Below, piece after piece: positions 8,097 through 40,273 of a DNA stretch of 64,000 bases. Source of the stretch: Stropharia rugosoannulata (taxonomy: Eukaryota; Basidiomycota; Agaricomycetes; Agaricales; Strophariaceae). Under the pieces are notes generated by a model. It ran no database searches. It was not told the DNA's origin and worked only from the letters and a program-made list of their open reading frames with translations. Position 1 is the first letter of the stretch, and every line of letters begins with the position of its first letter. Made by a program: the position numbers and the translations under genes. The stretch is taken from the NCBI GenBank assembly GCA_028532985.1, contig JANCIK010000012.1:2418001-2482000 (forward strand), written 5' to 3'.

Positions 8097-9508
8097 TGAC
8101 AGGCCTGCGTCTACACCAAGGCTGTAAGTGGCTACAGTGGGCGCTTTGGGCTGAAGTGCAGGGGTACAGCAGAGCGGTGACTAGCCTGGTCAGCCGTCTC
8201 AGCGCTCAGCGCGTGCATCACAAATCATCACGCGTGTGTTCAGCGGGCGGTTGTGTGGGGTTCAGCGGACTGTACAGGCCATGAGTACACAGTTGAAGTA
8301 CCCGGAATAGCTGTCAGCGGAGCACATAACGGTTACTGTCTTCTCAGCGGAAGACAGGAGTACAGCTGAGTAAAAATATCAAAGGCGATGAGCAGGACTG
8401 TGTGTAGACGAGGCCTCAAGGGGCTTAGCGGAACACTTCATAAAGGCGAAATTTGCCTAAGTCCACTCGTCAGGTGACCGTGGCGCGCGCGCTGGAGCGT
8501 GTGATGCCCGAGGGAATGAACAATGCGCACAGCATGGGCTCCGCTTGGAAACTTTGACAGCGGTAACCAGACCTCAATAACCAAGAAGGAATCGCTCAGC
8601 GGAGTTTAACGGCGTCTCTCGGCGGAGGCTGGCGACGCAACGGGATCAGGTCGCGCTCAGCGGAGTAGTCATCAAAACGCCCAGCGGAGGCACATGCGCT
8701 CAGCGGACCTTTGGTCCGGCATTGCTAGTATTTACTCTCCACCTAAATTAGTACACAGCGCGCGTCTATATAAACTTGTAATTGTAACTATGGGAATTAA
8801 GCAATTGTCTACCCACTAGATCTGTGTGTTGGGCTCTGTCCCAGACTGTCAGCGGGCTGTGTTTAGCTTTTGTTAGGGTCTTTACTGTGAAGTGTATTGT
8901 GAATCATAGAAGTTTTGGATAGCTTCTGGCCACCGGGTCATTTGGAGAGCTCAGCGGGGAGTCAGTACAACCGTGTACGAAAACTCGCGCTGTAGTGTTT
9001 TGTGAATTGAGACTGCACCACCAGGTGAACGAGGTTCTGGATAGCCTCAGCGGAACAGGACTTTGGACAGTCCCAGCGGAATGACTTTGGATAGTCAGCG
9101 GAGCGGGGCACAATTGGGAATACCAGCTTGTGTGAGCATCTGCATCGGTCACCAGACCTCAAACTCACTCAGCAGAATAAGCCCCGCGGAGCCACCATCA
9201 AAACTATACATTACTATTGATACCCTGTGCTCAGCGGAGGTCGCCCAGACATTAATCTGAGACTTCTAGAATTAAACCCCTCCTTTAAAACAAACTTGCA
9301 GGCACTGTACAGCGGACATCTGGACTGAACTTACGAGACTCTTAAACATCACAGTCCGCTCAGCGGAGAGGACCAGGAGAAGTGTAGACATCTATAATCT
9401 GTTTAGCTGAAGAGCATCGCTCGATCTAAGGGATAGGATCTCGCTCCGCAGGGGTTGTGTGTGTTGTGTTTCTTGTGATTCGAGTCTAGCCCCGCGGCAG
9501 ACCTCTCA
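8097..9508 (+). repeat. 5' LTR of element A
   Basis: 1,412 bp, beginning TGACAGGCC and ending GACCTCTCA (TG...CA). It contains 16 exact CAGCGG hexamers by eye and no CCGCTG. A TATA box lies at 8767-8774. It is followed after 2 bp by a primer-binding-site-like sequence. Preceded by CCGG at 8093-8096, the likely 4-bp target duplication. Confidence 0.92.
8767..8774 (+). promoter_or_regulatory. LTR TATA box
   Basis: TATATAAA within GCGCGTCTATATAAACTTG, about 670 bp into the LTR. It probably marks the end of U3, with transcription starting roughly 30 bp downstream. The same sequence is kept in the other full LTRs (reversed near 24110; forward near 39530). Confidence 0.6.
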
Positions 9509-9741
9509 TCTGGAGCCCACTGCGAGGGGTAGGTTCAGAAATCTCATATAGTGTTTCGGGGACCACGGCTTAGCACCTATTACAAAACATTTTAAAAATT
9601 TCAAATACAACGGGGACGAGTAACAAGCGAGGCAAATTTCCTGCACTGTCGTCGCTAGCAGAACCAGCGGAGGCTAGACCATCATTTGGTATACTGCCTC
9701 CGAGCGGGCGATCGACTAGGAGCAAGAAAGACGCTGAGCTT
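9509..9741 (+). other. Leader between 5' LTR and gag, element A
   Basis: Untranslated leader holding the primer-binding site. The gag frame stays open upstream of 9742 to just after a TAG ending at about 9570. That TTAG would also serve as a splice acceptor, so a spliced leader is possible. No ATG lies in frame here. Confidence 0.5.
9511..9528 (+). promoter_or_regulatory. Candidate primer-binding site of element A
   Basis: TGGAGCCCACTGCGAGGG starts 2 bp after the LTR. It begins with TGG, as expected for pairing with a tRNA 3' CCA end. The matching tRNA was not identified. Confidence 0.55.
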
Positions 9742-11493
9742 GTGGAACCATTGGTGATTACACCTACTCGAGATAGAAAAGCGAAGAGGAAAGCAAGGGA
9801 AGAGGCGTGGCTACAGATAGAAACGCAGGATCTTGCTCAGCGCGTACCAGGAGCGCTTACAGAGAGTGACTCAGAGCAGGAGGATGGGCCCAGCGGATTC
9901 TGGGGACCGCCTTCTGGAATTGAAACAGACGACTGCTCAGCAGACGGAGACATTACGCTTGAAGTTGCACCATTTGGCTCATCAGATAGCCAAGCTACTC
10001 AAGACACACCTCCTCTGTTTTCGGAAGTATTCGAGACTGCTAAGAGATCCGCTCAGCAGACGACAGATAATAGTGAGAGCGAGGCCGAGCGCGTGGCCAG
10101 AGATATATTTGAAGGAGACTTGTCAGACCTTTCCACAAGTGAACACGAACCGCCCCCTGAAATTATCACCATGCCTAAGGAAACGTCTATGCCTGTGCGC
10201 GGAGCGCGCGGTGCACCAAGCTTCGACCCCTCTGCTGAGCGTGATGAACTCCCACGCTACTTCGAGGACTTAGAGGACTGGTTCAAGTGCGCTGAGGTGA
10301 CGGAGGATAATGAGAGGAGAGGCTATGTAATCAAATATGTACCCATGCAGACAGCGGAGGAGTGGAAGAATTTACCAGGCTATGACACCAAGAGTTACGC
10401 TGAGCTGAAGAAGATGATCCTCAATGAATATCCTGAGGTGATCAGTATTCAGACGGGGTCCATCGCGCGCCTAAAGAAGCTGTGCAAGGAGAACCAGCAC
10501 ATCTCGGAGGAAGACCTCCAGGTGCTGTTGGACTTCAAGCGGGCATTCTTAGCGGAGGCAGCGAAGTTGACCAAGGCGCCTACCTTGCTGGCCAATCATA
10601 CACTGGTGACCTACTTCACCAACAGTCTCACAGCGGGGTTCAGGGAGAGGTTGTTTAACAAGCTGGATATCGACTACACTACGAGAACGTCGTTTGACAA
10701 GTACCTAAAGGAACGCAATATACCCTTTACGGCGCCAGCAGGGGTTCAGGTGGAAGCGCAGACTGAGGACATGTATCCGCTGAAGCAGGTGGCGGAAATG
10801 GCAGAGCAGATGGCACGCACCAAGAACCCTAGTACTTCGCTCAGCTTGAGTCGAGACTCAGCGGACAGGCTCATGCCTGTGCCTGCCATCAAGACCGAGT
10901 CAGCGGAGGTGCATAAGAAGCGCTGGCAAATAGTGGACTTGAAGGGCTTTGTAGCGTCGTTTAAAGATACATTGTCGCTGGTAGAAAAGACGGTGTTGAA
11001 GTCAAAAGAGACCAATAAGAAGGAGTTGGAAGACATTCTGCGCAATGTAATGTCATCGCGGGCGGCGCCTGTAGCTGCGCCAGTCCAGCCAGCGGTGCCT
11101 ATGATGCCAATGGGAGGACCAGGTTTCAGCGGAGCGCCGCCGCGTCCGTTTCAATACCAACAGCGACCTGAACCGAGGTGCTTCTATTGTAAACAGACGG
11201 GACACATCATAGCGGAGTGTATTGTGAGACAACAGGATCTGTCCGCTGGGAAGATAATCATCACGGAAGCTGGAAGGCTCCAACTCCCGGATGGATCGTC
11301 ATTACCTTGGGACCCTTCGCGCGCTATCAAAGAATGTGTAGATGAGTGGCATAAGAAGAGTGGGCTGCCAGTGCAGCAGGCCTACATGGCGCCGGTACAC
11401 CCAGCATACATGGGGACTCCGCCGAGCATGGTGTACGCCCAGGTCTACCAACCAGCCAGCTCTCTCGATGAGACTTATGAAGAGCAAATTTGA
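9742..11493 (+). CDS. gag: Gag polyprotein of element A
   Basis: Structural protein that would package the element RNA. The coordinates give the 583-codon open frame, which begins at a GTG. The first in-frame ATG is near 10171 (MPKETSMPVRG) in a good context and leads into PSFDPSAERDELPRYFEDLEDWF, which resembles the start of other fungal Ty3 Gags, so the AUG product is about 440 aa. A CCHC zinc knuckle, CFYCKQTGHIIAEC, lies near residue 480 of the long frame. The N-terminal extension is acidic and Ser-rich, and is either non-coding or reached by splicing. It ends with TGA at 11491-11493, overlapping pol in the -1 frame. Confidence 0.8.
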   Translation: MEPLVITPTRDRKAKRKAREEAWLQIETQDLAQRVPGALTESDSEQEDGPSGFWGPPSGIETDDCSADGDITLEVAPFGSSDSQATQDTPPLFSEVFETAKRSAQQTTDNSESEAERVARDIFEGDLSDLSTSEHEPPPEIITMPKETSMPVRGARGAPSFDPSAERDELPRYFEDLEDWFKCAEVTEDNERRGYVIKYVPMQTAEEWKNLPGYDTKSYAELKKMILNEYPEVISIQTGSIARLKKLCKENQHISEEDLQVLLDFKRAFLAEAAKLTKAPTLLANHTLVTYFTNSLTAGFRERLFNKLDIDYTTRTSFDKYLKERNIPFTAPAGVQVEAQTEDMYPLKQVAEMAEQMARTKNPSTSLSLSRDSADRLMPVPAIKTESAEVHKKRWQIVDLKGFVASFKDTLSLVEKTVLKSKETNKKELEDILRNVMSSRAAPVAAPVQPAVPMMPMGGPGFSGAPPRPFQYQQRPEPRCFYCKQTGHIIAECIVRQQDLSAGKIIITEAGRLQLPDGSSLPWDPSRAIKECVDEWHKKSGLPVQQAYMAPVHPAYMGTPPSMVYAQVYQPASSLDETYEEQI

Positions 11494-14400
11494 ACGCTGC
11501 AGCAGGAGCTGGACAGTCGGAAGGCGTTCTTAAAAGAGCACTCAGCGGTCAAGACGCCAGAGGAGGTGATAGAGGAGCAGCGGCAGCTGATCGCAACTAT
11601 GAAAGCGGAGCGGGATGCAGTGCTGAGCCAGGGTTTCGATTGAGTCTGATGAAGGGAAGCGTGGGCAGAGTTCAGCGTAGCGGCTCTGATAAACCCAAGA
11701 ACCCGGAAGACGTAAATAAGAAGCTACCAGTAAGAGGTACACCAAGGACAACTATCGAGGAGGTCGACAGCGGAGATGAGGAAGAGTTTATAGAGGAGAT
11801 TAGTAGACAGGTGCCCAGCGGAGCAGAGAAAAAGAAAGTAAGCTTCGCAGCGCCAGCGCAGAAAGTTGGGGAGAATAAAAAGCCAGCGCAGGTGCCGTAT
11901 GTAATGGTTCCTCCGCTGTGCGTACCAGAAAAGAGTCAGCCGCCTGTAAGAGAGGTGCCGATGCCGGTGATAGAGAAAAGGAAGCCAGCGTATAAGTTGC
12001 ACACGTCCATTGAGGATGAAGCACAAGCGGACGAAGTCCTTAAGCGTTTAGAGAGCCAGAAAATAGAGATCACTCAAGGGCAATTATTGGGGATCTCTAC
12101 AGCGGGGTTTAGGAGGAAGTTTGTCGAGTGTATCATACCGCGCAAGGTTCCGCTGGATGTAAATACCATGCAGGTTTTGCAGTTGGATTATGAGGCAGAG
12201 GAGTGGGAGATGGACGAGGCCATCGCCCAGCTGAAGCAGGAGAATGAAGAAGAAGAGTTCATGCAAATGGACGAGCTCCCAGCGGCGACGTTCCTCACTT
12301 GCACGGAGGAGCGCGGTGGTTTACAACCCGGCACAATAATCATGGAGGATCCTTATGAGCAATACATCTCGACGCTACAACCCGGCGAAAAGCCAAAGGG
12401 ATTAATTGTGGCACGAGAATCGCACCATCTCAAGGCAGTATTTCTGCTGATTAATGGGAAAGGCCGTGCAGAGACTCTGCTCGACAGCGGATCGCAAATA
12501 GTGTCCATGGTGCAAGATATCATGGAGCGACTAGGCTTAAGCTGGGATCCTGACTTTACCATTAGGATGCAGAGTGCTAACAAACAAGTCGAGTCGACTA
12601 AGGGCTTAGCGCGGAATGTACCTTTTGTGTTCAGCAGACTGACAGTGTACCTACAAGTGCACGTTATCAGCACAGCCGCTTACGAGGTTCTGTTGGGGAA
12701 GCCGTTTGAGATTCTCACTGAAAGCAATGTGAAGACGCGCGGGGATGGCACAGTGGAACTTACGCTGACGGACCCAAACACTCAGCGGAAGCTAGTGGTA
12801 CCTACGTATAATCGAGTGCGGGCCGAAGATACTTCAGTGGGAGCCAGATGTGCAGGACTCCAGCGCAGCGGAGGAGCCGCATGCCGACCAGGATTTTCAG
12901 TCCTCGATGATTTGATGCATCAAGGAGAGGTCGCGTTAATGTTCGAGCGGGATGATAGGACTGGAAAGATAGAGATAGCGGGGTATGCGTTGCCAAAGAA
13001 TGGAGGGAGATTTGGCTCCGCTGAGCTGAGAGATGTGTACATGGCTCAAGCTGTGCACGAGGCTAGGATGGAGGATAAAGAGAAAGCATCAATTTATAAG
13101 TACTTTCAGCAAAAAGAATGGCGAGAAAAAGAGACAGTGAAAGGCGAGCCGAGGGGGCAATTCCGCTCAGCGGACCCCGAGCAAAGCCAGTCAGCGCGGA
13201 AAGGAGTAACTAGAAAGCAGTTAAGTGGTAAGAATGCCACTACCGTAACCGTCTTTGCAGGAAAGAAATATAAGCCAGTCGCTGACAAGGTCAGGCCCGT
13301 TTATCAAGAGCTACCAGAGAAATTCAGGATAGTGAGAGAGATAAAGGGAGATCCGCTGAAAGAAATGCCTCCGCTGACGGTACACCCACCAGAGTTTGTA
13401 CCCACGGGAAGGTACACAGCGGAGCGGAAGGAGGAAATAGATAAAGCGCACGGAGGAGATTTCCTGTGGCCAGAGGAGCGCAAGCTAGTACATCAGGTGT
13501 TCATGCAGCAGAACGAGGTGTTCGCGTGGGATGACACGGAAAAGGGGAGGTTTAGAACAGACTTCTTCCTGCCGGTGGATATTCCAACAGTAGAACATAC
13601 GCCGTGGGTACTGAAAAATATACCCATTCCGCCAGGCATGTATGAGCGGGTGTGCGAGTTCATCGCTACTAAGATCCGCACTGGGACTTATGAACCATCC
13701 AGTTCATCATACCAGTCGCACTGGTTCACAGTAACAAAGAAAGACGGGGTATCCTTTAGAATAGTACACAGCTTAGAGCCGCTGAACGCTGTTACCATCG
13801 CACACTCAGGATTGCCACCAGCAGCGGAGAGTTTGGCAGAACACTTCGCTGGGCGTGCGTGTGGCGGAATACTGGACTTGTATGTAGGCTACGACGAGCG
13901 GCTCTTAGCGGAGTCGTCTCGCGACCTAACAACATTCCAGACACCGTTTGGTGTGCTCCGCTTAGTGACCTTGCCAATGGGTTGGACCAATTCTGTACCC
14001 ATCTTCCATGAAGATGTAACTTATATTCTCCGCGATGAAATACCAGATGTCACGGAGCCGTACATTGACGATGTGCCTATCCGCGGACCGAAGACACGGT
14101 ATGAATTAGAGGATGGAGGGTATGAGACGATTCCAGAGAACAGCAGAATCAGGCGTTTTGTGTGGGAACACATGCAGAATGTGAATAGGATAGTTCAGCA
14201 GATGAAGTACTCAGGAGGGACTTTCAGCGGAAAGAAATCCATATTGTGTGCAGCGGAGATTGTAGTGGTGGGACACTTATGTACCTACGAGGGTCGAAAG
14301 CCAGCGCCAGATAAAGTACACGCTATCCTCAACTGGGGGCCGTGTAAGAATGTCAGCGATGTGTGCGCCTTCATGGGTACGATGGGGCTCCTGCGTATTT

Positions 14401-15680
14401 ACATCTCAGACTACGCTAAGCGAGCGGAGCACATACAGCGATTGTTGCGTGGGAAAGAACCCTTCGAGTGGGGGCCAGCGCAGCAAGCCAGTATGGATGC
14501 ACTGAAAGATGGAGCACGGAACGCACACTGTGTCAAGCCACTGGACTATACACTGCCAGGACCAATCACGCTGGCAGTAGATACGTCTTGGCGCGCTGTA
14601 GGATTTTATATCTACCAGCAAGATCCGCTGAACGCGAAGAAGCGTGTGTACGCCCGCTTTGGGTCAATTCTGTTAACTGAGAGGGAACAGCAGTTCTCAC
14701 AACCAAAGAGAGAGCTATACGGGCTATTGCGAGCACTGCAGGCGTGCTATTACTGGCTCATCGGAGCGCGGAAGTTGGTAGTGGAGACGGATGCCAAATA
14801 TCTCAAAGGGATGTTGGATAATCCGGGCATGGGACCTAACGCTACCATTAACCGCTGGATAGACAAGATCCTTATGTACCACTTTCAGCTGAAGCATGTA
14901 GCAGGCAAAACGTTTGGCGCAGACGGCCTGTCGCGACGAGAAGGACAACCAGGAGATGAAGAGTATGAGCACTCAGCGGAGGATGATGACCAAGAAGTAG
15001 GCCCGCTGGAGTACGAGAAAGTGTATGAAGAGGATCCCGATCTGCTGAGTTTAGAAGAGTTCAAGGACCAGATTGACGACCACAGAGGATATCTACAAGC
15101 TGGATTCCTCAACGAGTTGTTTGATGGTCCCGCTGAGCCAGCTAGAACGGAGGCACATTCGGTTGACTGTTTCCAGTTAGAACTGGAACGGGCGAGAAAA
15201 GAGACGAGAGCAGAACAGCAGACAGTGCGTAACTTCCTACAGACGGAGGAGGTGTTGCCCGCTCAGCGGGCGTACTTAGAGAAATTTGTTCTGGCACATG
15301 TAATTCCAGAGTCAAAGATAGATGAGTTGGAAGACGAAGAGTACGATGAGCGGAATCGAACGTCAGCAGGGAAGGACATGGATGATAAGCTGCCAATGAT
15401 AAGGTATTGGCTGCAAAATCCCAGTACAAGACCCAAGGATATGAGCGAACGGGAGTATCAGAATTTCATCCGTAACGCACGAAACTTCTTCTTAGACAAG
15501 GATGGGCGGATGTACCGGCGCTCAGTGGACGAGGCACATAAACTGGTCGTAGATCCCGCTCAGCGGACGCGCATGTTGCGTGCTGCGCATGACAGCCTGG
15601 GGCACAGAGGCGCATACACCACGCGCAAACTGCTGATGGAGCGCTTCTGGTGGCCAGAGCTGGAGCGGGATGTCTACTGA
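11490..15680 (+). CDS. pol: Pol of element A: protease, reverse transcriptase, RNase H, integrase N-terminus
   Basis: Open frame of 1,396 codons in the -1 frame relative to gag. It opens after a stop at 11478-11480, so frameshifting or reinitiation must occur in about 13 bases (11481-11493). Aspartic protease motif LLDSGSQIVS is at about residue 332, and the reverse transcriptase YIDD box at 858-861. RNase H follows, with TLAVDTSWRAVGFYI and VVETDAKYLKGML, then the connection ADGLSRREG. The integrase zinc finger begins with H1367-x4-H1372 (HDSLGH) and RFWWPELERDVY, then hits TGA. The Cys pair of the HHCC finger is absent, so the end is a truncation shared with element B. Confidence 0.88.
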   Translation: MNAAAGAGQSEGVLKRALSGQDARGGDRGAAAADRNYESGAGCSAEPGFRLSLMKGSVGRVQRSGSDKPKNPEDVNKKLPVRGTPRTTIEEVDSGDEEEFIEEISRQVPSGAEKKKVSFAAPAQKVGENKKPAQVPYVMVPPLCVPEKSQPPVREVPMPVIEKRKPAYKLHTSIEDEAQADEVLKRLESQKIEITQGQLLGISTAGFRRKFVECIIPRKVPLDVNTMQVLQLDYEAEEWEMDEAIAQLKQENEEEEFMQMDELPAATFLTCTEERGGLQPGTIIMEDPYEQYISTLQPGEKPKGLIVARESHHLKAVFLLINGKGRAETLLDSGSQIVSMVQDIMERLGLSWDPDFTIRMQSANKQVESTKGLARNVPFVFSRLTVYLQVHVISTAAYEVLLGKPFEILTESNVKTRGDGTVELTLTDPNTQRKLVVPTYNRVRAEDTSVGARCAGLQRSGGAACRPGFSVLDDLMHQGEVALMFERDDRTGKIEIAGYALPKNGGRFGSAELRDVYMAQAVHEARMEDKEKASIYKYFQQKEWREKETVKGEPRGQFRSADPEQSQSARKGVTRKQLSGKNATTVTVFAGKKYKPVADKVRPVYQELPEKFRIVREIKGDPLKEMPPLTVHPPEFVPTGRYTAERKEEIDKAHGGDFLWPEERKLVHQVFMQQNEVFAWDDTEKGRFRTDFFLPVDIPTVEHTPWVLKNIPIPPGMYERVCEFIATKIRTGTYEPSSSSYQSHWFTVTKKDGVSFRIVHSLEPLNAVTIAHSGLPPAAESLAEHFAGRACGGILDLYVGYDERLLAESSRDLTTFQTPFGVLRLVTLPMGWTNSVPIFHEDVTYILRDEIPDVTEPYIDDVPIRGPKTRYELEDGGYETIPENSRIRRFVWEHMQNVNRIVQQMKYSGGTFSGKKSILCAAEIVVVGHLCTYEGRKPAPDKVHAILNWGPCKNVSDVCAFMGTMGLLRIYISDYAKRAEHIQRLLRGKEPFEWGPAQQASMDALKDGARNAHCVKPLDYTLPGPITLAVDTSWRAVGFYIYQQDPLNAKKRVYARFGSILLTEREQQFSQPKRELYGLLRALQACYYWLIGARKLVVETDAKYLKGMLDNPGMGPNATINRWIDKILMYHFQLKHVAGKTFGADGLSRREGQPGDEEYEHSAEDDDQEVGPLEYEKVYEEDPDLLSLEEFKDQIDDHRGYLQAGFLNELFDGPAEPARTEAHSVDCFQLELERARKETRAEQQTVRNFLQTEEVLPAQRAYLEKFVLAHVIPESKIDELEDEEYDERNRTSAGKDMDDKLPMIRYWLQNPSTRPKDMSEREYQNFIRNARNFFLDKDGRMYRRSVDEAHKLVVDPAQRTRMLRAAHDSLGHRGAYTTRKLLMERFWWPELERDVY

Positions 15681-16796
15681 TTCCGTGGACAGAGACACAT
15701 ATGCCGTCCATCTTCCAGCAGCTACACGCGGACACTATGCACATGTCACCTGCCTCAAATGGGTACAACTACATAGTGCACGGGCGGTGCGCGCTGAGCT
15801 CATGGGTGGAAGGTCGTCCGCTGAAGAAAGAGAACGCAAGGGCGATAGTGCAGTGGATGTTTGAGGATATTATCTGCCGCTGGGGATGTCTTAGCGAGAT
15901 AATCACAGATAATGGTGGACCGTTCCGCGCAGCGCTCAAGTACTTAGAAAAGAAGTATGGTATTACAGGGATTACAATCTCAGCGTACAACTCTCAGGCG
16001 AACGGAAAGATAGAGCGCCCCATTGGGACATCAGACAAATGTTGTGGAAAGCGTGTGGAGGTACCGAGGGCGCACATAAGCGCTGGAGCAAGTTCTTCTA
16101 CCATGTGCTGTGGGCGGACCGCGTTACAGTGTGCCGCGGATTCGGTGTTCACCCTTCTTCATGGTCACTGGCACGCACCCGATACTACTGCTGGACATCA
16201 CTGAGGCGACATGGCTAGTCAAGTTACCAGATTGCGTACTTACCAAAGAGGAGTTAGTAGGGTATCGTGCGCGCGCGCTGGCCAAACATAGGGACACAGT
16301 GGAGGAGATGCGTCAGCGGGTGTCAAAAATAAAGCGGGATGCTATCAGAGAGTTCGAGTGGAAACACTCTGCTAAGATCAGAGACTATGCGTTCAAACCT
16401 GGCGATGTCGTACTGATGCATAACTCTGGCATTGAGTCCAGCTTAAATCGCAAAATGTTGGCGCGCTGGAATGGACCATACATTGTCATCGCGCGGAAGG
16501 AAGGAGGCGCTTATCTAGTCGCTGAGCTGGATGGGTCAGTGCTGAAAGACAAAGTCGCAGCATTCTGCTTAATACCCTACTTCGCCAGGCGCCAGCGGAA
16601 GCTGCCAGCGGACTTAGATGATATCATTGATCAAACGCGCAAGAACCTCAACAAGATGATGTCAGCGCCAGACTACGAGCCGGCCATACCTAAAGACTAT
16701 ATCTTTGATGAACCAGGAGTGGTTTCAGGCAGCGGCCAAGTCCCAGCGGACGAAGAGGATGATGATGAGGATGGGTGGGCGGAGCCCGATGCTTAG
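15650..16796 (+). pseudogene. Integrase core of element A, frameshifted
   Basis: Continues the integrase in another frame: LHADTMHM, IITDNGGPF and KIERP provide the D,D-35-E catalytic residues. Comparison with the nearly identical copy B shows single-base losses near 16017 (GAGCGCCCC against GAGCGGCCCC) and near 16148 (TTCGGTG against TTCGGGTG). The frame therefore breaks after KIERP and resumes near 16110-16150 with the C-terminal part (FKPGDVVLMHNSGIESSLNRKM, LIPYFARRQRKLP). The acidic tail ends at 16796. The protein cannot be made intact. Confidence 0.85.
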
Positions 16797-16916
16797 AAGC
16801 GCAAAGTAGAAAAGGAGACCACAATAGAGTAAATTGGGTAGACTAAAGGAGAAAGGCACAAAAGAAACTAGCTAAGGGCCACTTTGAGGCGCTCAGCAGA
16901 GTAATTAAGAGGGCCA

Positions 16917-18231
16917 TCACTGCAGCGCGGGCTCCTCAGCGGGGCTGTTCCCAGTCAAATCCAAGCTGCTCTGTAAAGTCTCTAACTCTTTAACGAGCAG
17001 AGCACGGCGCTTCAGGATGAAGTCAATCTTGTGCAAGTCACAGATGATCTCAGCTTGCAAGTCTCCGATGAGACAGCGAGTGACGAGCTCAGATGGGTTC
17101 CCGGTGTTCAGCAGTTCCTTAATGAGGTTGGTAGCGGTGTCGAGACAAGCATTGACCTTGTTGTTCGAGAGAGTAAGATTGGTACCTGAAAGAAGGTGAA
17201 AGAGCTCAGCGGACGCAACAGAGAAGAATAAGGGCAAAGAGCGCACCTTGTACAATGAAAGGAGAATCGGCGAAAGTAGGAACACCGTCAGCGCCGAGAC
17301 AGGCCTTCTTAGAGGAAGCGTCGTGGAACGGTGTGTCGCGCGGAGAGCGCCGGTTGTCAGAGGAGCGGAGTGTCATGCCGCGGCCAAGCACACGAGTGCG
17401 ATGTCCGCTGGCCTCAGTACGCTCCTGCTGACATAGAAGTGAGAAAGTAACGAGGGAGGGAAAACGCAACAAAACGAACCTGACGAGGAGTGTCGGGAGG
17501 AGGCGCTGAGCGCTTCTTCGAAGGGCTAGGCTCTGGGGTATTCTGGCGGCTAGGTACTCCGCCCTCAGTGGCAGCCTTGATCTTGTCATCGAGGGCCATC
17601 TTTTTAAGGAGGAGGTACAGCTGCATGTTAGTAATATCTAAAAGGGTGAAGGAAGTCAGTCACACCTTGTCGTCATCAGAATCGGGGGAGGAGGTACCTC
17701 CAGGGGCAGAGACCGTCTCAGGATCGGCAGCGGAGCGCGAGAGGAGGCGAACGTTGCGCTGAGTGGACGGTTAAAAAGATAAAGAGAGGCGGCAAGCACA
17801 CAGCATACTGGTCCAGTGGGAGTATGCATGCGCTGACGCGAAGCAGCGGCTTTCGCTTTTAAAACTTGCTCATGCAGAGTGATAAAAGCGTTGGCAGCGG
17901 GAGAGAAAGTGCGGAAGTGGTGATCCGCCTCCAAGGAGGTGTAGATGGCACGCGTCTCGTTGAGAATATCAATAGCCTCGCTGTTATTAATGATACGAGT
18001 AATGCCGCCGTGGGGATCACGCCAGCGGTTCTAAAAAGTTCGAGTGGTCAGCGGAGTACAAGGCCCAGCGGACCAGCTGAGTGCTGTGCGTACTAAGTCA
18101 ATAGCCAGAAGCTCGAGGCTCCCGGTATAGTTGGAAGGCATGGCGGAAGCCAAGCCTCTGATATCTTGGATTAATGCCAGCTGGTGTTTGACATTACTAA
18201 AGTTGTACAGCGGAGCAGGTGTGTTGGACAT
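16917..18231 (-). CDS. Accessory gene a4 of element A (347 aa, spliced, antisense)
   Basis: Mirror of copy B (29307-30621), with the same exon structure: 18231-18094, 18030-17809, 17758-17666, 17620-17480, 17427-17247, 17185-16917. The family is unrecognised. The protein has a helical N-terminus, a low-complexity Ser/Pro/Arg middle likely to be disordered, and a helical C-terminal domain with DLHKIDFILKRRALLVKEL. It lies tail to tail with gag-pol, its stop 120 bp from the integrase stop. Being antisense to the genomic RNA, its introns would not be spliced from that RNA. Confidence 0.68.
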
Positions 18232-19228: not shown

Positions 19229-19297
19229 GCTGGCGTATACAAATACAGACAGAGGGAGTTATATTATATACAAAGATGGTCAGCGCAGCGGACCACC

Positions 19298-30621: not shown

Positions 30622-30741
30622 TGGCCCTCTTAATTACTCTGCTGAGCGCCTCAAAGTGGCCCTTAGCTAGTTTCTTTTGTGCCTTTCTCCTTTAGTCTAC
30701 CCAATTTACTCTATTGTGGTCTCCTTTTCTACTTTGCGCTT

Positions 30742-31890
30742 CTAAGCATCGGGCTCCGCCCACCCATCCTCATCATCATCCTCTTCGTCCGCTGGGACTT
30801 GGCCGCTGCCTGAAACCACTCCTGGTTCATCAAAGATATAGTCTTTAGGTATGGCCGGCTCGTAGTCTGGCGCTGACATCATCTTGTTGAGGTTCTTGCG
30901 CGTTTGATCAATGATATCATCTAAGTCCGCTGGCAGCTTCCGCTGGCGCCTGGCGAAGTAGGGTATTAAGCAGAATGCTGCGACTTTGTCTTTCAGCACT
31001 GACCCATCCAGCTCAGCGACTAGATAAGCGCCTCCTTCCTTCCGCGCGATGACAATGTATGGTCCATTCCAGCGCGCCAACATTTTGCGATTTAAGCTGG
31101 ACTCAATGCCAGAGTTATGCATCAGTACGACATCGCCAGGTTTGAACGCATAGTCTCTGATCTTAGCAGAGTGTTTCCACTCGAACTCTCTGATAGCATC
31201 CCGCTTTATTTTTGACACCCGCTGACGCATCTCCTCCACTGTGTCCCTATGTTTGGCCAGCGCGCGCGCACGATACCCTACTAACTCCTCTTTGGTAAGT
31301 ACGCAATCTGGTAACTTGACTAGCCATGTCGCCTCAGTGATGTCCAGCAGTAGTATCGGGTGCGTGCCAGTGACCATGAAGAAGGGTGAACACCCGAATC
31401 CGCGGCACACTGTAACGCGGTCCGCCCACAGCACATGGTAGAAGAACTTGCTCCAGCGCTTATGTGCGCCCTCGGTACCTCCACACGCTTTCCACAACAT
31501 TTGTCTGATGTCCCAATGGGGCCGCTCTATCTTTCCGTTCGCCTGAGAGTTGTACGCTGAGATTGTAATCCCTGTAATACCATACTTCTTTTCTAAGTAC
31601 TTGAGCGCTGCGCGGAACGGTCCACCATTATCTGTGATTATCTCGCTAAGACATCCCCAGCGGCAGATAATATCCTCAAACATCCACTGCACTATCGCCC
31701 TTGCGTTCTCTTTCTTCAGCGGACGACCTTCCACCCATGAGCTCAGCGCGCACCGCCCGTGCACTATGTAGTTGTACCCATTTGAGGCAGGTGACATGTG
31801 CATAGTGTCCGCGTGTAGCTGCTGGAAGATGGACGGCATATGTGTCTCTGTCCACGGAATCAGTAGACATCCCGCTCCAGCTCTGGCCAC
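30742..31890 (-). CDS. Integrase core and C-terminus of element B
   Basis: Open for 382 codons. Catalytic residues lie in LHADTMHM, IITDNGGPF and KIERPHWD (D,D-35-E), followed by FKPGDVVLMHNSGIESSLNRKM and GGAYLVAELDGSV, the C-terminal DNA-binding part of Ty3-type integrases, and an acidic tail. It is in a different frame from the preceding pol and lacks the Cys half of the zinc finger. The start given is the beginning of the open frame, not a likely initiation codon. The core is intact here, whereas element A has two 1-base losses. Confidence 0.85.
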   Translation of the reverse strand: MARAGAGCLLIPWTETHMPSIFQQLHADTMHMSPASNGYNYIVHGRCALSSWVEGRPLKKENARAIVQWMFEDIICRWGCLSEIITDNGGPFRAALKYLEKKYGITGITISAYNSQANGKIERPHWDIRQMLWKACGGTEGAHKRWSKFFYHVLWADRVTVCRGFGCSPFFMVTGTHPILLLDITEATWLVKLPDCVLTKEELVGYRARALAKHRDTVEEMRQRVSKIKRDAIREFEWKHSAKIRDYAFKPGDVVLMHNSGIESSLNRKMLARWNGPYIVIARKEGGAYLVAELDGSVLKDKVAAFCLIPYFARRQRKLPADLDDIIDQTRKNLNKMMSAPDYEPAIPKDYIFDEPGVVSGSGQVPADEEDDDEDGWAEPDA

Positions 31891-34800
31891 CAGAAGCGCT
31901 CCATCAGCAGTTTGCGCGTGGTGTATGCGCCTCTGTGCCCCAGGCTGTCATGCGCAGCACGCAACATGCGCGTCCGCTGAGCGGGATCTACGACCAGTTT
32001 ATGTGCCTCGTCCACTGAGCGCCGGTACATCCGCCCATCCTTGTCTAAGAAGAAGTTTCGTGCGTTACGGATGAAATTCTGATACTCCCGTTCGCTCATA
32101 TCCTTGGGTCTTGTACTGGGATTTTGCAGCCAATACCTTATCATTGGCAGCTTATCATCCATGTCCTTCCCTGCTGACGTTCGATTCCGCTCATCGTACT
32201 CTTCGTCTTCCAACTCATCTATCTTTGACTCTGGAATTACATGTGCCAGAACAAATTTCTCTAAGTACGCCCGCTGAGCGGGCAACACCTCCTCCGTCTG
32301 TAGGAAGTTACGCACTGTCTGCTGTTCTGCTCTCGTCTCTTTTCTCGCCCGTTCCAGTTCTAACTGGAAACAGTCAACCGAATGTGCCTCCGTTCTAGCT
32401 GGCTCAGCGGGACCATCAAACAACTCGTTGAGGAATCCAGCTTGTAGATATCCTCTGTGGTCGTCAATCTGGTCCTTGAACTCTTCTAAACTCAGCAGAT
32501 CGGGATCCTCTTCATACACTTTCTCGTACTCCAGCGGGCCTACTTCTTGGTCATCATCCTCCGCTGAGTGCTCATACTCTTCATCTCCTGGTTGTCCTTC
32601 TCGTCGCGACAGGCCGTCTGCGCCAAACGTTTTGCCTGCTACATGCTTCAGCTGAAAGTGGTACATAAGGATCTTGTCTATCCAGCGGTTAATGGTAGCG
32701 TTAGGTCCCATGCCCGGATTATCCAACATCCCTTTGAGATATTTGGCATCCGTCTCCACTACCAACTTCCGCGCTCCGATGAGCCAGTAATAGCACGCCT
32801 GCAGTGCTCGCAATAGCCCGTATAGCTCTCTCTTTGGTTGTGAGAACTGCTGTTCCCTCTCAGTTAACAGAATTGACCCAAAGCGGGCGTACACACGCTT
32901 CTTCGCGTTCAGCGGATCTTGCTGGTAGATATAAAATCCTACAGCGCGCCAAGACGTATCTACTGCCAGCGTGATTGGTCCTGGCAGTGTATAGTCCAGT
33001 GGCTTGACACAGTGTGCGTTCCGTGCTCCATCTTTCAGTGCATCCATACTGGCTTGCTGCGCTGGCCCCCACTCGAAGGGTTCTTTCCCACGCAACAATC
33101 GCTGTATGTGCTCCGCTCGCTTAGCGTAGTCTGAGATGTAAATACGCAGGAGCCCCATCGTACCCATGAAGGCGCACACATCGCTGACATTCTTACACGG
33201 CCCCCAGTTGAGGATAGCGTGTACTTTATCTGGCGCTGGCTTTCGACCCTCGTAGGTACATAAGTGTCCCACCACTACAATCTCCGCTGCACACAATATG
33301 GATTTCTTTCCGCTGAAAGTCCCTCCTGAGTACTTCATCTGCTGAACTATCCTATTCACATTCTGCATGTGTTCCCACACAAAACGCCTGATTCTGCTGT
33401 TCTCTGGAATCGTCTCATACCCTCCATCCTCTAATTCATACCGTGTCTTCGGTCCGCGGATAGGCACATCGTCAATGTACGGCTCCGTGACATCTGGTAT
33501 TTCATCGCGGAGAATATAAGTTACATCTTCATGGAAGATGGGTACAGAATTGGTCCAACCCATTGGCAAGGTCACTAAGCGGAGCACACCAAACGGTGTC
33601 TGGAATGTTGTTAGGTCGTGAGACGACTCCGCTAAGAGCCGCTCGTCGTAGCCTACATACAAGTCCAGTATTCCGCCACACGCACGCCCAGCGAAGTGTT
33701 CTGCCAAACTCTCCGCTGCTGGTGGCAATCCTGAGTGTGCGATGGTAACAGCGTTCAGCGGCTCTAAGCTGTGTACTATTCTAAAGGATACCCCGTCTTT
33801 CTTTGTTACTGTGAACCAGTGCGACTGGTATGATGAACTGGATGGTTCATAAGTCCCAGTGCGGATCTTAGTAGCGATGAACTCGCACACCCGCTCATAC
33901 ATGCCTGGCGGAATGGGTATATTTTTCAGTACCCACGGCGTATGTTCTACTGTTGGAATATCCACCGGCAGGAAGAAGTCTGTTCTAAACCTCCCCTTTT
34001 CCGTGTCATCCCACGCGAACACCTCGTTCTGCTGCATGAACACCTGATGTACTAGCTTGCGCTCCTCTGGCCACAGGAAATCTCCTCCGTGCGCTTTATC
34101 TATTTCCTCCTTCCGCTCCGCTGTGTACCTTCCGTGGTACAAACTCTGGTGGGTGTACCGTCAGCGGAGGCATTTCTTTCAGCGGATCTCCCTTTATCTC
34201 TCTCACTATCCTGAATTTCTCTGGTAGCTCTTGATAAACGGGCCTGACCTTGTCAGCGACTGGCTTATATTTCTTTCCTGCAAAGACGGTTACGGTAGTG
34301 GCATTCTTACCACTTAACTGCTTTCTAGTTACTCCTTTCCGCGCTGACTGGCTTTGCTCGGGGTCCGCTGAGCGGAATTGCCCCCTCGGCTCGCCTTTCA
34401 CTGTCTCTTTTTCTCGCCATTCTTTTTGCTGAAAGTACTTATAAATTGATGCTTTCTCTTTATCCTCCATCCTAGCCTCGTGCACAGCTTGAGCCATGTA
34501 CACATCTCTCAGCTCAGCGGAGCCAAATCTCCCTCCATTCTTTGGCAACGCATACCCCGCTATCTCTATCTTTCCAGTCCTATCATCCCGCTCGAACATT
34601 AACGCGACCTCTCCTTGATGCATCAAATCATCGAGGACTGAAAATCCTGGTCGGCATGCGGCTCCTCCGCTGCGCTGGAGTCCTGCACATCTGGCTCCCA
34701 CTGAAGTATCTTCGGCCCGCACCCCCGATTATACGTAGGTACCACTAGCTTCCGCTGAGTGTTTGGGTCCGTCAGCGTAAGTTCCACTGTGCCATCCCCG

Positions 34801-36050
34801 CGCGTCTTCACATTGCTTTCAGTGAGAATCTCAAACGGCTTCCCCAACAGAACCTCGTAAGCGGCTGTGCTGATAACGTGCACTTGTAGGTACACTGTCA
34901 GTCTGCTGAACACAAAAGGTACATTCCGCGCTAAGCCCTTAGTCGACTCGACTTGTTTGTTAGCACTCTGCATCCTAATGGTAAAGTCAGGATCCCAGCT
35001 TAAGCCTAGTCGCTCCGCGGTATCTTGCACCATGGACACTATTTGCGATCCGCTGTCGAGCAGAGTCTCTGCACGGCCTTTCCCATTAATCAGCAGAAAT
35101 ACTGCCTTGAGATGGTGCGATTCTCGTGCCACAATTAATCCCTTTGGCTTTTCGCCGGGTTGTAGCGTCGAGATGTATTGCTCATAAGGATCCTCCATGA
35201 TTATTGTGCCGGGTTGTAAACCACCGCGCTCCTCCGTGCAAGTGAGGAACGTCGCCGCTGGGAGCTCGTCCATTTGCATGAACTCTTCTTCTTCATTCTC
35301 CTGCTTCAGCTGGGCGATGGCCTCGTCCATCTCCCACTCCTCTGCCTCATAATCCAACTGCAAAACCTGCATGGTATTTACATCCAGCGGAACCTTGCGC
35401 GGTATGATACACTCGACAAACTTCCTCCTAAACCCCGCTGTAGAGATCCCCAATAATTGCCCTTGAGTGATCTCTATTTTCTGGCTCTCTAAACGCTTAA
35501 GGACTTCGTCCGCTTGTGCTTCATCCTCAATGGACGTGTGCAACTTATACGCTGGCTTCCTTTTCTCTATCACCGGCATCGGCACCTCTCTTACAGGCGG
35601 CTGACTCTTTTCTGGTACGCACAGCGGAGGAACCATTACATACGGCACCTGCGCTGGCTTTTTATTCTCCCCAACTTTCTGCGCTGGCGCTGCGAAGCTT
35701 ACTTTCTTTTTCTCTGCTCCGCTGGGCACCTGTCTACTAATCTCCTCTATAAACTCTTCCTCATCTCCGCTGTCGACCTCCTCGATAGTTGTCCTTGGTG
35801 TACCTCTTACTGGTAGCTTCTTATTTACGTCTTCCGGGTTCTTGGGTTTATCAGAGCCGCTACGCTGAACTCTGCCCACGCTTCCCTTCATCAGACTCAA
35901 TCGAAACCCTGGCTCAGCACTGCATCCCGCTCCGCTTTCATAGTTGCGATCAGCTGCCGCTGCTCCTCTATCACCTCCTCTGGCGTCTTGACCGCTGAGT
36001 GCTCTTTTAAGAACGCCTTCCGACTGTCCAGCTCCTGCTGCAGCGTTCAA
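31860..36050 (-). pseudogene. pol: Pol of element B with two frameshifts
   Basis: Same protein as in element A, in three frames: 36050-34623 (protease, DSGS), 34722-34096, and 34142-31860 (reverse transcriptase YIDD, RNase H, HDSLGH). Against element A it has 2 extra bases near 34726 (AATCGGGGGTGCGG for AATCGAGTGCGG) and 2 missing near 34132 (GTACCACGGAAGG for GTACCCACGGGAAGG). It ends at the same TGA after ELERDVY as element A. A few substitutions distinguish the copies, for example DTAERL here for DIMERL. Confidence 0.88.
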
Positions 36051-37796
36051 ATTTGCTCTTCATAAGTCTCATCGAGAGAGCTGGCTGGTTGGTAGACCTG
36101 GGCGTACACCATGCTCGGCGGAGTCCCCATGTATGCTGGGTGTACCGGCGCCATGTAGGCCTGCTGCACTGGCAGCCCACTCTTCTTATGCCACTCATCT
36201 ACACATTCTTTGATAGCGCGCGAAGGGTCCCAAGGTAATGACGATCCATCCGGGAGTTGGAGCCTTCCAGCTTCCGTGATGATTATCTTCCCAGCGGACA
36301 GATCCTGTTGTCTCACAATACACTCCGCTATGATGTGTCCCGTCTGTTTACAATAGAAGCACCTCGGTTCAGGTCGCTGTTGGTATTGAAACGGACGCGG
36401 CGGCGCTCCGCTGAAACCTGGTCCTCCCATTGGCATCATAGGCACCGCTGGCTGGACTGGCGCAGCTACAGGCGCCGCCCGCGATGACATTACATTGCGC
36501 AGAATGTCTTCCAACTCCTTCTTATTGGTCTCTTTTGACTTCAACACCGTCTTTTCTACCAGCGACAATGTATCTTTAAACGACGCTACAAAGCCCTTCA
36601 AGTCCACAATTTCCCCGCGCAGCGTATGCACCTCCGCTGACTCGGTCTTGATGGCAGGCACAGGCATGAGCCTGTCCGCTGAGTCTCGACTCAAGCTGAG
36701 CGAAGTACTAGGGTTCTTGGTGCGTGCCATCTGCTCTGCCATTTCCGCCACCTGCTTCAGCGGATACATGTCCTCAGTCTGCGCTTCCACCTGAACCCCT
36801 GCTGGCGCCGTAAAGGGTATATTGCGTTCCTTTAGGTACTTGTCAAACGACGTTCTCGTAGTGTAGTCGATATCCAGCTTGTTAAACAACCTCTCCCTGA
36901 ACCCCGCTGTGAGACTGTTGGTGAAGTAGGTCACCAGTGTATGATTGGCCAGCAAGGTAGGCGCCTTGGTCAACTTCGCTGCCTCCGCTAAGAATGCCCG
37001 CTTGAAGTCCAACAGCACCTGGAGGTCTTCCTCCGAGATGTGCTGGTTCTCCTTGCACAGCTTCTTTAGGCGCGCGATGGACCCCGTCTGAATACTGATC
37101 ACCTCAGGATATTCATTGAGGATCATCTTCTTCAGCTCAGCGTAACTCTTGGTGTCATAGCCTGGTAAATTCTTCCACTCCTCCGCTGTCTGCATGGGTA
37201 CATATTTGATTACATAGCCTCTCCTCTCATTATCCTCCGTCACCTCAGCGCACTTGAACCAGTCCTCTAAGTCCTCGAAGTAGCGTGGGAGTTCATCACG
37301 CTCAGCAGAGGGGTCGAAGCTTGGTGCACCGCGCTCCGCGCACAGGCATAGACGTTTCCTTAGGCATGGTGATAATTTCAGGGGGCGGTTCGTGTTCACT
37401 TGTGGAAAGGTCTGACAAGTCTCCTTCAAATATATCTCTGGCCACGCGCTCGGCCTCGCTCTCACTATTATCTGTCGTCTGCTGAGCGGATCTCTTAGCA
37501 GTCTCGAATACTTCCGAAAACAGAGGAGGTGTGTCTTGAGTAGCTTGGCTATCTGATGAGCCAAATGGTGCAACTTCAAGCGTAATGTCTCCGTCTGCTG
37601 AGCAGTCGTCTGTTTCAATTCCAGAAGGCGGTCCCCAGAATCCGCTGGGCCCATCCTCCTGCTCTGAGTCACTCTCTGTAAGCGCTCCTGGTACGCGCTG
37701 AGCAAGATCCTGCGTTTCTATCTGTAGCCACGCCTCTTCCCTTGCTTTCCTCTTCGCTTTTCTATCTCGAGTAGGTGTAATCACCAATGGTTCCAC
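36047..37796 (-). pseudogene. gag: Gag of element B, frameshifted near its start
   Basis: Nearly identical to gag of element A, including the CFYCKQTGHIIAEC zinc knuckle. One CG pair is missing near 37335 (GGAGCGCGGTGC for GGAGCGCGCGGTGC). The frame that holds the likely AUG start (MPKETSMPVRGAR) therefore ends early at CTKLRPLC. The main part, from GAPSFDPSAERD on, is open in another frame to 36047. Confidence 0.85.
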
Positions 37797-38029
37797 AAGC
37801 TCAGCGTCTTTCTTGCTCCTAGTCGATCGCCCGCTCGGAGGCAGTATACCAAATGATGGTCTAGCCTCCGCTGGTTCTGCTAGCGACGACAGTGCAGGAA
37901 ATTTGCCTCGCTTGTTACTCGTCCCCGTTGTATTTGAAATTTTTAAAATGTTTTGTAATAGGTGCTAAGCCGTGGTCCCCGAAACACTATATGAGATTTC
38001 TGAACCTACCCCTCGCAGTGGGCTCCAGA
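37797..38029 (-). other. Leader and primer-binding site of element B
   Basis: Mirror of 9509-9741. The candidate primer-binding site is 38010-38027 (complement), two bases from the LTR at 38030. Confidence 0.5.
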
Positions 38030-38854
38030 TGAGAGGTCTGCCGCGGGGCTAGACTCGAATCACAAGAAACACAACACACACAACCCCTGCGGAGCGAGAT
38101 CCTATCCCTTAGATCGAGCGATGCTCTTCAGCTAAACAGATTATAGATGTCTACACTTCTCCTGGTCCTCTCCGCTGAGCGGACTGTGATGTTTAAGAGT
38201 CTCGTAAGTTCAGTCCAGATGTCCGCTGTACAGTGCCTGCAAGTTTGTTTTAAAGGAGGGGTTTAATTCTAGAAGTCTCAGATTAATGTCTGGGCGACCT
38301 CCGCTGAGCACAGGGTATCAATAGTAATGTATAGTTTTGATGGTGGCTCCGCGGGGCTTATTCTGCTGAGTGAGTTTGAGGTCTGGTGACCGATGCAGAT
38401 GCTCACACAAGCTGGTATTCCCAATTGTGCCCCGCTCCGCTGACTATCCAAAGTCATTCCGCTGGGACTGTCCAAAGTCCTGTTCCGCTGAGGCTATCCA
38501 GAACCTCGTTCACCTGGTGGTGCAGTCTCAATTCACAAAACACTACAGCGCGAGTTTTCGTACACGGTTGTACTGACTCCCCGCTGAGCTCTCCAAATGA
38601 CCCGGTGGCCAGAAGCTATCCAAAACTTCTATGATTCACAATACACTTCACAGTAAAGACCCTAACAAAAGCTAAACACAGCCCGCTGATGGTCTGGGAC
38701 AGAGCCCAACACACAGATCTAGTGGGTAGACAATTGCTTGATTTCCGTAGTTACAATTACAAGTTTATATAGACGCGTGCTGTGTACTAATTTAGGTGGA
38801 GAGTAAATACTAGCAACGCCGGACCAAAGGTCCGCTGAGCGCATGTGCCTCCGC
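38030..38854 (-). repeat. Part of the 5' LTR of element B (825 bp, reversed)
   Basis: Reverse complement of the last 825 bp of the LTR, from TGAGAGGTC to GTGCCTCCGC, where a forward LTR starts. Its sequence matches the same part of the LTR at 8097, not that of the LTRs at 23367 or 38855. Confidence 0.88.
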
Positions 38855-40273
38855 TGACAGGCCTGCGTTTACGACAAGGCTGTAATATAGCCACAGCAAG
38901 CGGTTTGGGCTGAAGTGCAAGGGTACAGCGGAGCAGTGACTAGCCTGGTCAGCCGTCTCGGCGCTCAGCGCGTGCATCACAAATCATCATGCGTGTGCTC
39001 AGCGGGCGGTTGTGTGGGGCTCAGCAGACTGTACCAGCCATAAGTACACAGTTGAAGGACCCGGAATAACTGCCAGCGGGGCACATAACGGTTACTGTCT
39101 TCTCAGCGGAAGGCAGGAGTACAGCTGAGCGAGAAATATCAAAGGCGACGAGCAGGACTGTGTGTAGACGGTGTCCCAAAAGGGGCTCAGCGGAACACAT
39201 CACGAAGGCGAGATTTGCCTAAGTCCACTCGTCAAGTGACCGTGGCGCGTGCGCTGGAGCGTGTGATGCCCGAGGGAAATAAATAATGCACACAGCACGG
39301 ACTCTGCTGGGGAACTTTGGCAGCGGTAACCAGGCCCCAGTAACCAGGAAGGAACCGCTCAGCGGAGTTTAGCGGTGTCTCTCGGCGGAGGCTGGCAACA
39401 CAACGAGGTCAGGTCGTGCTCAGCAGAGTAGTCATCAAAACGCCCAGCGGAGGCACATGCGCTCAGCGGACCTTTGGTCCGGCATTGCTAGTATTTACTC
39501 TCCACCTAAATTAGTACACAGCGCGCGTCTATATAAACTTGTAATTGTAACTATGGGAATTAAGCAATTGTCTACCCACTAGATCTGTGTGTTGGGCTCT
39601 GTCCCAGACTGTCAGCGGGCTGTGTTTAGCTTTTGTTAGGGTCTTTACTGTGAAGTGTATTGTGAATCATAGAAGTTTTGGATAGCTTCTGGCCACCGGG
39701 TCATTTGGAGAGCTCAGCGGGGAGTCAGTACAACCGTGTACGAAAACTCGCGCTGTAGTGTTTTGTGAATTGAGACTGCACCACCAGGTGAACGAGGTTC
39801 TGGATAGCCTCAGCGGAACAGGACTTTGGACAGTCCCAGCGGAATGACTTTGGATAGTCAGCGGAGCGGGGCACAATTGGGAATACCAGCTTGTGTGAGC
39901 ATCTGCATCGGTCACCAGACCTCAAACTCACTCAGCAGAATAAGCCCCGCGGAGCCACCATCAAAACTATACATTACTATTGATACCCTGTGCTCAGCGG
40001 AGGTCGCCCAGACATTAATCTGAGACTTCTAGAATTAAACCCCTCCTTAAAAACAAACTTGCAGGCACTGTACAGCGGGCATCTGGACTGAACTTACGAG
40101 ACCCTTAACACATCACACTCCGCTCAGTGGGGAGGTACCAGGAGAAGCATAGACATCTATAATCCGTTTAGCTGAAGAGCGTCGCTCAATCTAAGGGATA
40201 GGATCTTGCTCCGCAGGGGTTGTGTGTGTTGTGTTTCTTGTGATTCGAGTCTAGCCCCGCGGCAGACCTCTCA
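38855..40273 (+). repeat. Right-hand forward LTR (mosaic)
   Basis: Full-length 1,419 bp, TGACAGGCC to GACCTCTCA, followed by CCGG at 40274-40277. It is a patchwork. The first 70 bp match the B 3' LTR, the next 250 bp match the A 3' LTR piece, about 39165-39440 is a more diverged type, and the last 825 bp match the B 3' LTR. In the nested model its first part came from the 5' LTR of B and its last part from the 3' LTR of A. Confidence 0.88.

Follow-up and report, generated by a model that had tools for sequence, protein, structure and literature searches.

Sister Ty3-type retrotransposon clades of Stropharia rugosoannulata are filled with different short motifs that may be read by an antisense-encoded protein

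The stretch of DNA analysed here (the window) comprises 64,000 nucleotides of the basidiomycete Stropharia rugosoannulata (GCA_028532985.1, contig JANCIK010000012.1, positions 2,418,001 to 2,482,000). Within it, the block 8097-40273 consists of a Ty3-type long terminal repeat (LTR) retrotransposon, element A, an inverted relative, element B, and a third LTR (Table 1). The LTRs of A have TG...CA ends, and its gag-asp_proteas, RT_RNaseH and Integrase_H2C2 domains follow the Ty3 order. Two gene regions, a1 and a2, run antisense downstream of pol; in B, a1 is predicted to be a spliced gene with four GT...AG introns lying between pol and the 3' LTR. We found that A is strongly enriched in the hexamer CAGCGG, that this motif is conserved among the LTRs of its close relatives (clade 1), that a sister clade of the same genome (clade 2) carries a different word in its place, the palindrome TGCGCGCA, and that the a1 protein differs between the clades in a matching way. 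These data suggest that every family tags its own DNA with a code that its own protein reads.

In the 5' LTR of A, the 17 copies of CAGCGG on the element strand and the absence of CCGCTG compare with dinucleotide-shuffle means of 0.69 and 0.34; the shuffle maximum was 5, 17 was reached in 0 of 500 shuffles, and an order-2 model expects 3.29. The first-pass annotation of this DNA had noticed both the excess and the missing reverse word, and its count of 16 had overlooked the site at 8558. In both the LTR and the interior of A, the top-ranked 6-, 7- and 8-mers are CAGCGG, CAGCGGA and TCAGCGGA / CAGCGGAG. The preferred context at 21 majority LTR sites defines the extended motif CTCAGCGGA, with a weak preceding G and little further. 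CAGCGGA occurs 13 times in the LTR (0.13 expected) and 42 times in the interior (1.96 expected), where its reverse word occurs 14 times (0.48 expected); none of these counts was reached in 500 dinucleotide shuffles. Altogether, 95 sites of both orientations lie in 8097-22774, with a mean spacing of 151 bases and a largest gap of 568. Density is highest in the first kilobase, which is LTR (14 sites, against 5-9 per later full kilobase), making the LTR about twice as dense as the interior. In the whole genome (48 Mb, 20 contigs), CTCAGCGGA occurs 722+749 times and the reversed word 143+137 times. The flanks of the block lack the enrichment, as had been claimed: CAGCGG occurs 1/1 times (forward/reverse) in the left 8.1 kb and 0/4 times in the right 23.7 kb.

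The word is also over-represented inside genes. When protein sequence and codon usage were held constant (1000 shuffles each), CAGCGGA occurred 12 times in pol against 1.64 expected, 6 times in gag against 0.72, and 5 times in a1 exon 1 against 1.04; the reverse word TCCGCTG occurred 6 times in pol against 0.25. No shuffle reached any of these counts, so that the codon-aware control proposed in the first-pass annotation does not reproduce them. The stretch shuffled as a1 exon 1 was the single open frame 22385-21222, which also spans an intron and a little extra 5' sequence. The integrase frame is less striking (3 against 0.61, reached in 10 of 1000), and the claim that the motif continues through gag, pol and the antisense genes stands for A with this weaker stretch. 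Within pol, CAGCGG is spread across the three frames (8, 6 and 3), and the encoded amino acid differs from clade 2 in 8 of 41 motif codons and 106 of 891 others. Control pol regions from nine loci of other integrase-bearing elements contained 0-1 forward and 0-3 reverse CAGCGG, the three reverse copies being in L058, and one TGCGCGCA in total, in L059. Some of these regions have over-represented 6-mers of their own (e.g., TCAAGA, 10 against 1.56, in L062, which looks like one family with L065), and their 8-mers never occur more than four times. Spread by tandem duplication was considered and rejected: sequences next to the LTR sites have little in common outside CTCAGCGGA, and Tandem Repeats Finder reports only small arrays of 24-26 bp with fewer than three copies in the LTRs. 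A likeness of TAGCTCAGCGGA to tRNA box A was dropped, as the pattern occurs five times genome-wide and its control 2+3 times.

The orientation of the sites varies along the element. The first-pass annotation had placed the motif always on the same element strand, which is correct for the LTR at 8097-9508 and wrong for the interior of A, where forward and reverse sites number 59/19 (30/14 in 9509-16800, 18/2 in 16801-19838 and 11/3 in A's own 3' part). Relative to codon shuffles, the reverse word is over-represented 24-fold in pol and the forward word 7-fold; hence, the strand bias of pol is mostly a matter of codon composition. Forward bias is genuine in the non-coding LTR, with 537 forward and 49 reverse sites over 30 clade-1 copies (15-21 and 0-2 per copy), and strong in 16801-19838. 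Reversed element B had been described as carrying CCGCTG throughout; this applies where B matches A and fails in B's own 3' part (24782-27701), with three sites on the element strand and five on the other.

Conservation was assessed on these 30 LTR copies, which were cut from 58 matches, include the three of the window and have a median pairwise divergence of 5%. At the non-CpG motif bases, deviations affect 12 of 2520 cells (0.0048), as compared with 783 of 33764 non-CpG cells elsewhere (0.0232), a difference of about five-fold. When blocks were drawn at random 2000 times from 71 other CpG-centred ones, 0.1% of the draws matched this conservation; the motif sites had been picked for their presence in most copies, which favours conservation somewhat. 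Most deviating cells at motif sites (90 of 102) fall on the CpG, giving mainly CAGCAG or CAGTGG, and the motif CpGs decay at 0.071, close to the 0.077 of other CpGs. Since they decay like others, the copies look CpG-methylated, and the family has nonetheless kept a CpG-containing motif. In both clades, motif losses are mostly CpG changes, chiefly transitions, a pattern that points to cytosine methylation of the elements. Judging from these substitutions, the host probably methylates its DNA.

With 59 of 369 candidates scored, a pol search gave at least 59 loci, at least 20 at 96-100% and at least 39 at 85-91% identity. In the clade-2 element L035/L036, the LTR holds five TGCGCGCA (0.06 expected) and the 5.6-kb 3' interior holds 14 (0.23 expected), neither count being reached in 500 shuffles; CAGCGG occurs there 6 times against 3.15 (47 of 500), and CTCAGCGGA was not found on either strand of L035. 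Clade-2 pol is likewise enriched beyond codon usage (GCGCGCA, 9 against 1.74; TGCGCGCA, 4 against 0.40; 0 of 1000 each). At clade-2 positions homologous to clade-1 sites, the clade-1 word is usually missing. The contrast extends to the wider families. All 30 clade-1 LTRs keep their forward sites, and none contains TGCGCGCA, which occurs once in the interior of A; in 22 clade-2 LTRs (two from L035/L036 and 20 other matches) we counted 2-8 TGCGCGCA and only 0-2 forward and 0-1 reverse CAGCGG. The first-pass annotation had taken absence of the motif from related elements as an argument against its reading; the motif is kept throughout the clade-1 LTRs and is replaced by another word in the sister clade, which makes the outcome informative. 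Around a1, 12 further clade-2 regions of 3 kb each contain 6-18 GCGCGC (order-1 expectation 1.0-2.3 at the eleven loci that list it as a top word) and 2-6 TGCGCGCA, with CAGCGG counts of 0-2 (forward) and 0-1 (reverse). In eight clade-1 a1 regions, TGCGCGCA is missing and CAGCGG counts are 2-12 (forward) and 1-5 (reverse). Genome-wide, TGCGCGCA occurs 2784 times and its reversed form 633 times. No third clade with a third motif was seen among 93 typed a1 loci; these were assigned, out of 101 C-terminal matches, by identity to L036 (at least 66% for clade 2, at most 58% for clade 1), leaving out eight short or weak pieces of 41-86%, one of which (C1:2463844, 65% over 72 residues) falls in the gap. 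Altogether, because codon and dinucleotide shuffles do not reproduce the word, its non-CpG bases change about five-fold less and the sister clade has a different one, it is well supported that selection acts on the motif itself.

Among the element proteins, a1 shows the largest change accompanying that of the motif. Between A/B and L035/L036, identity is 84% for gag, 88% for pol (931 residues) and 89% for integrase, and the zinc knuckle is nearly identical. Gag or integrase is therefore unlikely to be the motif reader, both being little altered, and a2, whose aligned pieces share 56-86% of their amino acids between clades, is a less likely candidate than a1. For a1, identities between A/B and L035/L036 are 33-34% in the N-terminus and 35-38% in a domain with six cysteines. 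Against 13 clade-2 loci, the a1 of A scores (identical residues over query length) 28-41% in the N-terminus, 26-38% in the cysteine domain, 34-57% in the middle and 58-68% in the C-terminal helix region. The corresponding values for six additional clade-1 loci of the A type are 82-93% in the cysteine domain, 55-75% in the N-terminus, 72-84% in the middle and 70-79% in the C-terminal helix region. The cysteine domain is thus the best-kept part of a1 within A-type clade 1 and, with the N-terminus, the worst kept towards clade 2, the pattern expected of a motif-recognising part. Its six cysteines are invariant in all 23 aligned sequences, and by eye a1 has basic stretches resembling nuclear localisation signals. 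Zn2Cys6 (Gal4-type) clusters have the spacing C-x2-C-x6-C-x5-12-C-x2-C-x6-8-C; in a1, the first loop has 13-16 residues and no Pfam match was obtained, so that it does not qualify as such a cluster.

The first-pass annotation had proposed selection at the DNA or RNA level, for example for binding sites of an element-encoded protein, and had named the VANC proteins of plant VANDAL transposons as a precedent in principle. Selection is well supported by the shuffles, the conservation and the sister-clade motif. From sequence comparison, binding sites are the most plausible interpretation, as no other gene changed so much along with the motif. We propose that the two sister clades have each come to carry a short sequence of their own throughout their DNA, a CTCAGCGGA-like word in the LTRs, gag, pol and antisense genes of clade 1, and TGCGCGCA in the LTRs, pol and 3' region of clade 2, weakly in gag. 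The antisense-encoded a1 would recognise these sites as double-stranded DNA through its six-cysteine domain, which would probably bind zinc and would have changed alongside the motif. By coating element copies, a1 would most likely keep or bring them out of silencing by DNA methylation, as VANC proteins do for VANDAL transposons. We consider it an even call that a1 is a DNA-binding protein reading the family motif, most likely for anti-silencing. Slightly less confidently, and on balance tentatively, we extend this to a wider picture, in which a family writes a self-address over its whole sequence, including coding parts, and encodes the matching reader in antisense; once the cysteine domain of the reader changes, the address would be rewritten over some 15 kb by point substitution, and sister families would become mutually invisible.

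Several observations weigh against this proposal. Recognition by a plain DNA-binding protein does not predict the forward bias seen in the LTRs, for which directional loading of the protein or a residual role at the RNA level is a possible explanation. The motif CpGs of the copies examined carry no visible protection. B-type a1 proteins (element B, L055 and L056) share 66-71% of the cysteine domain with the A-type, yet their elements have the same motif, and the 3' region of the B-type has fewer, unbiased sites. Clade-2 loci resemble L036 less in the cysteine domain (59-82%) than in the C-terminal region (83-92%). The clade-2 motif is also distributed less evenly, L035 having 0-10 hits per kb: its gag-like open reading frame (ORF) is not clearly enriched (GCGCGCA, 2 against 0.92, 228 of 1000), and of the 12 clade-2 a1 regions four have at most nine GCGCGC and five just two TGCGCGCA. 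Conservation in clade 2 is weaker, 0.0110 against 0.0221 as raw proportions on 33 columns, and whole TGCGCGCA words are kept like other two-CpG 8-mers (0.727 and 0.713). Regarding the protein, neither Pfam, PDB-sequence nor protein-database matches gave a DNA-binding fold for a1, no homologue was found at E 0.001 among 7993 scored candidates from a collection that may contain few fungi, and the AlphaFold2 model of the cysteine domain is unusable, at a predicted local distance difference test score of 48. Finally, a1 and pol clades agree in 44 of 44 pairs with 0 recombinants (opposite strands, 3.0-9.5 kb apart; 49 of the 93 a1 loci have no pol partner in the list). With two clades only and a1 never separated from pol, the link between a1 and motif is correlational, and another clade-specific difference could be the cause.

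The closest alternative, which we regard as unlikely, keeps a1 as the reader and gives it another purpose, such as LTR transcription, loading of cDNA, nuclear import, or steering insertions into existing copies. The two-fold density of the LTR is compatible with such roles, as is the tendency of copies to cluster and nest, evident from LTR matches grouped on contigs C3 and C7 and from the window itself with A, inverted B and a third LTR. A promoter factor would have no need of the 78 interior sites. Quite improbable, in our view, is a signal read in genomic RNA, e.g., for packaging by Gag. The forward bias of the LTRs and of 16801-19838 would suit it; the nearly identical Gag zinc knuckle of clades with different motifs, the reverse word exceeding codon expectation in pol and the DNA palindrome of clade 2 all speak against it. 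We judge it equally improbable that the sites are bound by a protein of the host, for instance an insulator protein or a transcription factor, for which the Su(Hw) sites of Drosophila gypsy are an example. Such a protein would likewise work on double-stranded DNA, and CpG is present in both motifs; nevertheless, two different host factors would be needed for sister clades of one genome, neither word is enriched in the nine control pol regions, and the clade-1 sites run through coding sequence. That codon usage, composition or mutational bias produced the word is hardly credible, since the partly compositional strand bias of pol and the raised order-2 expectation stand against shuffles that never reach the CAGCGGA counts in pol, gag, a1 exon 1, LTR or interior, a maximum density in non-coding LTR, an opposing CpG decay and a sister clade without the word.

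The arrangement of the copies deserves comment. A and B are 99.7% identical across 11.2 kb and differ in the last 2.9 kb, where the a1 regions 19839-22774 (A) and 24782-27701 (B) are about 71% alike over 0.4 kb only. Hence, a1 cassettes may be exchanged among otherwise near-identical copies. The introns of A's a1 were assigned from GT...AG ends and comparison with B; its last exon has an in-frame stop at 20726-20728 (minus strand), and that of B is open through to 27321. The junctions 23366/23367 and 38855/38856 both lie near LTR base 590, and the segment between them looks inverted through recombination inside the LTRs. The whole 32-kb block is bordered by CCGG (8093-8096 and 40274-40277), like a target-site duplication from one insertion event. 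Just 5' of the first LTR lies an inverted repeat of 374 bases (7052-7425 and 7704-8077, 98% complementary, 278 bases apart). Further left are Helitron-like N-terminal and PIF1 helicase genes (2206-6716); to the right, there are a Plavaka transposase and a KDZ-kind CxC4 cysteine cluster (46371-49053 and 59873-60586), a diverged tandem array of GTAC-rich units repeating every 53 bases (57996-58428), and a further 53-base array (62552-62689). The Helitron and Plavaka/KDZ genes, together with the short introns, point to a basidiomycete genome.

Table 1. Components of the block 8097-40273 in window coordinates; site counts are CAGCGG / CCGCTG or as specified.
Feature	Position	Strand	Remarks
5' LTR of A	8097-9508	+	TG...CA ends; 17 / 0; one of 30 clade-1 LTR copies
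gag ORF of A	9574-11493	+	CCHC knuckle slightly below Pfam cut-off; 8 / 2
pol ORF of A	11481-15680	+	Protease, reverse-transcriptase RNase H, integrase start; 17 / 10
Remaining integrase region of A	15593-16796	+	Two overlapping frames; 5 CAGCGG within 16080-16796
Antisense gene region a2	16917-19820	-	Several exon-like ORFs
Antisense gene a1 of A	20726-22343	-	Exons 22343-21599, 21535-21264, 21207-21003, then from 20922
Six-cysteine domain of A's a1 (proposed motif reader)	21004-21207	-	
3' LTR of A, first 592 bases	22775-23366	+	Ends at inversion breakpoint; 6 / 0
LTR of B, reversed	23367-24781	-	16 / 0 on element strand
a1 of B (antisense to B)	25221-27321	+	623 amino acids; exons 25221-25592, 25659-25947, 25999-26249, 26307-26511, 26567-27321
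Six-cysteine domain of B's a1	26307-26510	+	68% identity to A's
B interior common to A	27702-38029	-	Motif reversed; 99.7% A/B match extends into B's LTR part to 38856
B's integrase counterpart	30742-31947		89% identity to clade 2
Remainder of B LTR	38030-38856	-	Ends at second inversion breakpoint; 10 / 0 on element strand
Third LTR, complete	38855-40273	+	16 / 0

Element proteins acting on their own family have precedents. The binding sites of Spm TnpA and MuDR MURA are terminal, lie in DNA transposons and do not cover the whole element. According to PMC10398659, both proteins are linked to demethylation of their own family. The closest parallel is found in the VANC proteins of Arabidopsis VANDAL transposons, which bind family-specific short motifs and remove methylation, as described in PMC5735166 and PMC10398659. 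Those motifs have 8-9 bases, are dense and largely restricted to one family group, and differ between related families (YAGTATTAY and AGTTGTCC/AGTTGTAC). The fungal system resembles them in the motif switch between close relatives of one genome, the fast-changing element protein and the probably methylating host. Unlike in VANDALs, whose motif is reported there to lie in non-coding tandem repeats and to be missing from exon probes, the fungal motif occupies gag, pol and a1 exon 1, mostly without tandem repeats. Moreover, VANDALs are Mutator-like elements with VANA, VANB and VANC, whereas the fungal element has LTR retrotransposon domains and a1 exon ORFs without a Pfam family, no relation of a1 to VANC was detected, and the LTR sites are strand-biased. 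Binding and demethylation are demonstrated for VANC; sequence comparison points to a1 as a candidate for such a role.

Among LTR retrotransposons, Sireviruses (Ty1/copia) have RM boxes, many short CG-rich, element-specific palindromic motifs in their LTRs, mostly with a CGG-CCG core, upstream of the promoter and, in some elements, upstream of env; the part of PMC2829016 available to us names no cognate element protein. The high copy number in LTRs and the palindrome of clade 2 are shared features. In contrast, the fungal interior and coding regions also carry the motif, the clade-1 motif is no palindrome, that of clade 2 has no CGG-CCG core and the element is of the Ty3 type. The position and orientation of a1 and a2 resemble those of the extra antisense ORFs of function unknown between pol and the 3' LTR of the plant Ty3 elements Grande, RIRE2 and Retand, some of whose products are reported to localise to the nucleus (PMC7264820). 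There, the hosts are plants, and the word 'motif' does not appear in the text of the paper.

Our literature search, which covered few subscription papers, returned no description of an LTR retrotransposon saturated, genes included, with a motif of its own. As far as this search shows, a self-address with an antisense reader would, if true, be without precedent among LTR retrotransposons and among fungi. Should a1 read the motif, transposons would have evolved sequence-specific recognition of their own kind outside plant DNA transposons as well, and this recognition would extend into coding sequence; the antisense genes preceding the 3' LTR of certain Ty3 elements would gain a candidate function. 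With two such reader/motif pairs present in a single genome, if true, it would become directly testable how a protein and its roughly one hundred dispersed sites shift specificity jointly, and such pairs could be used as sequence-specific epigenome tools.

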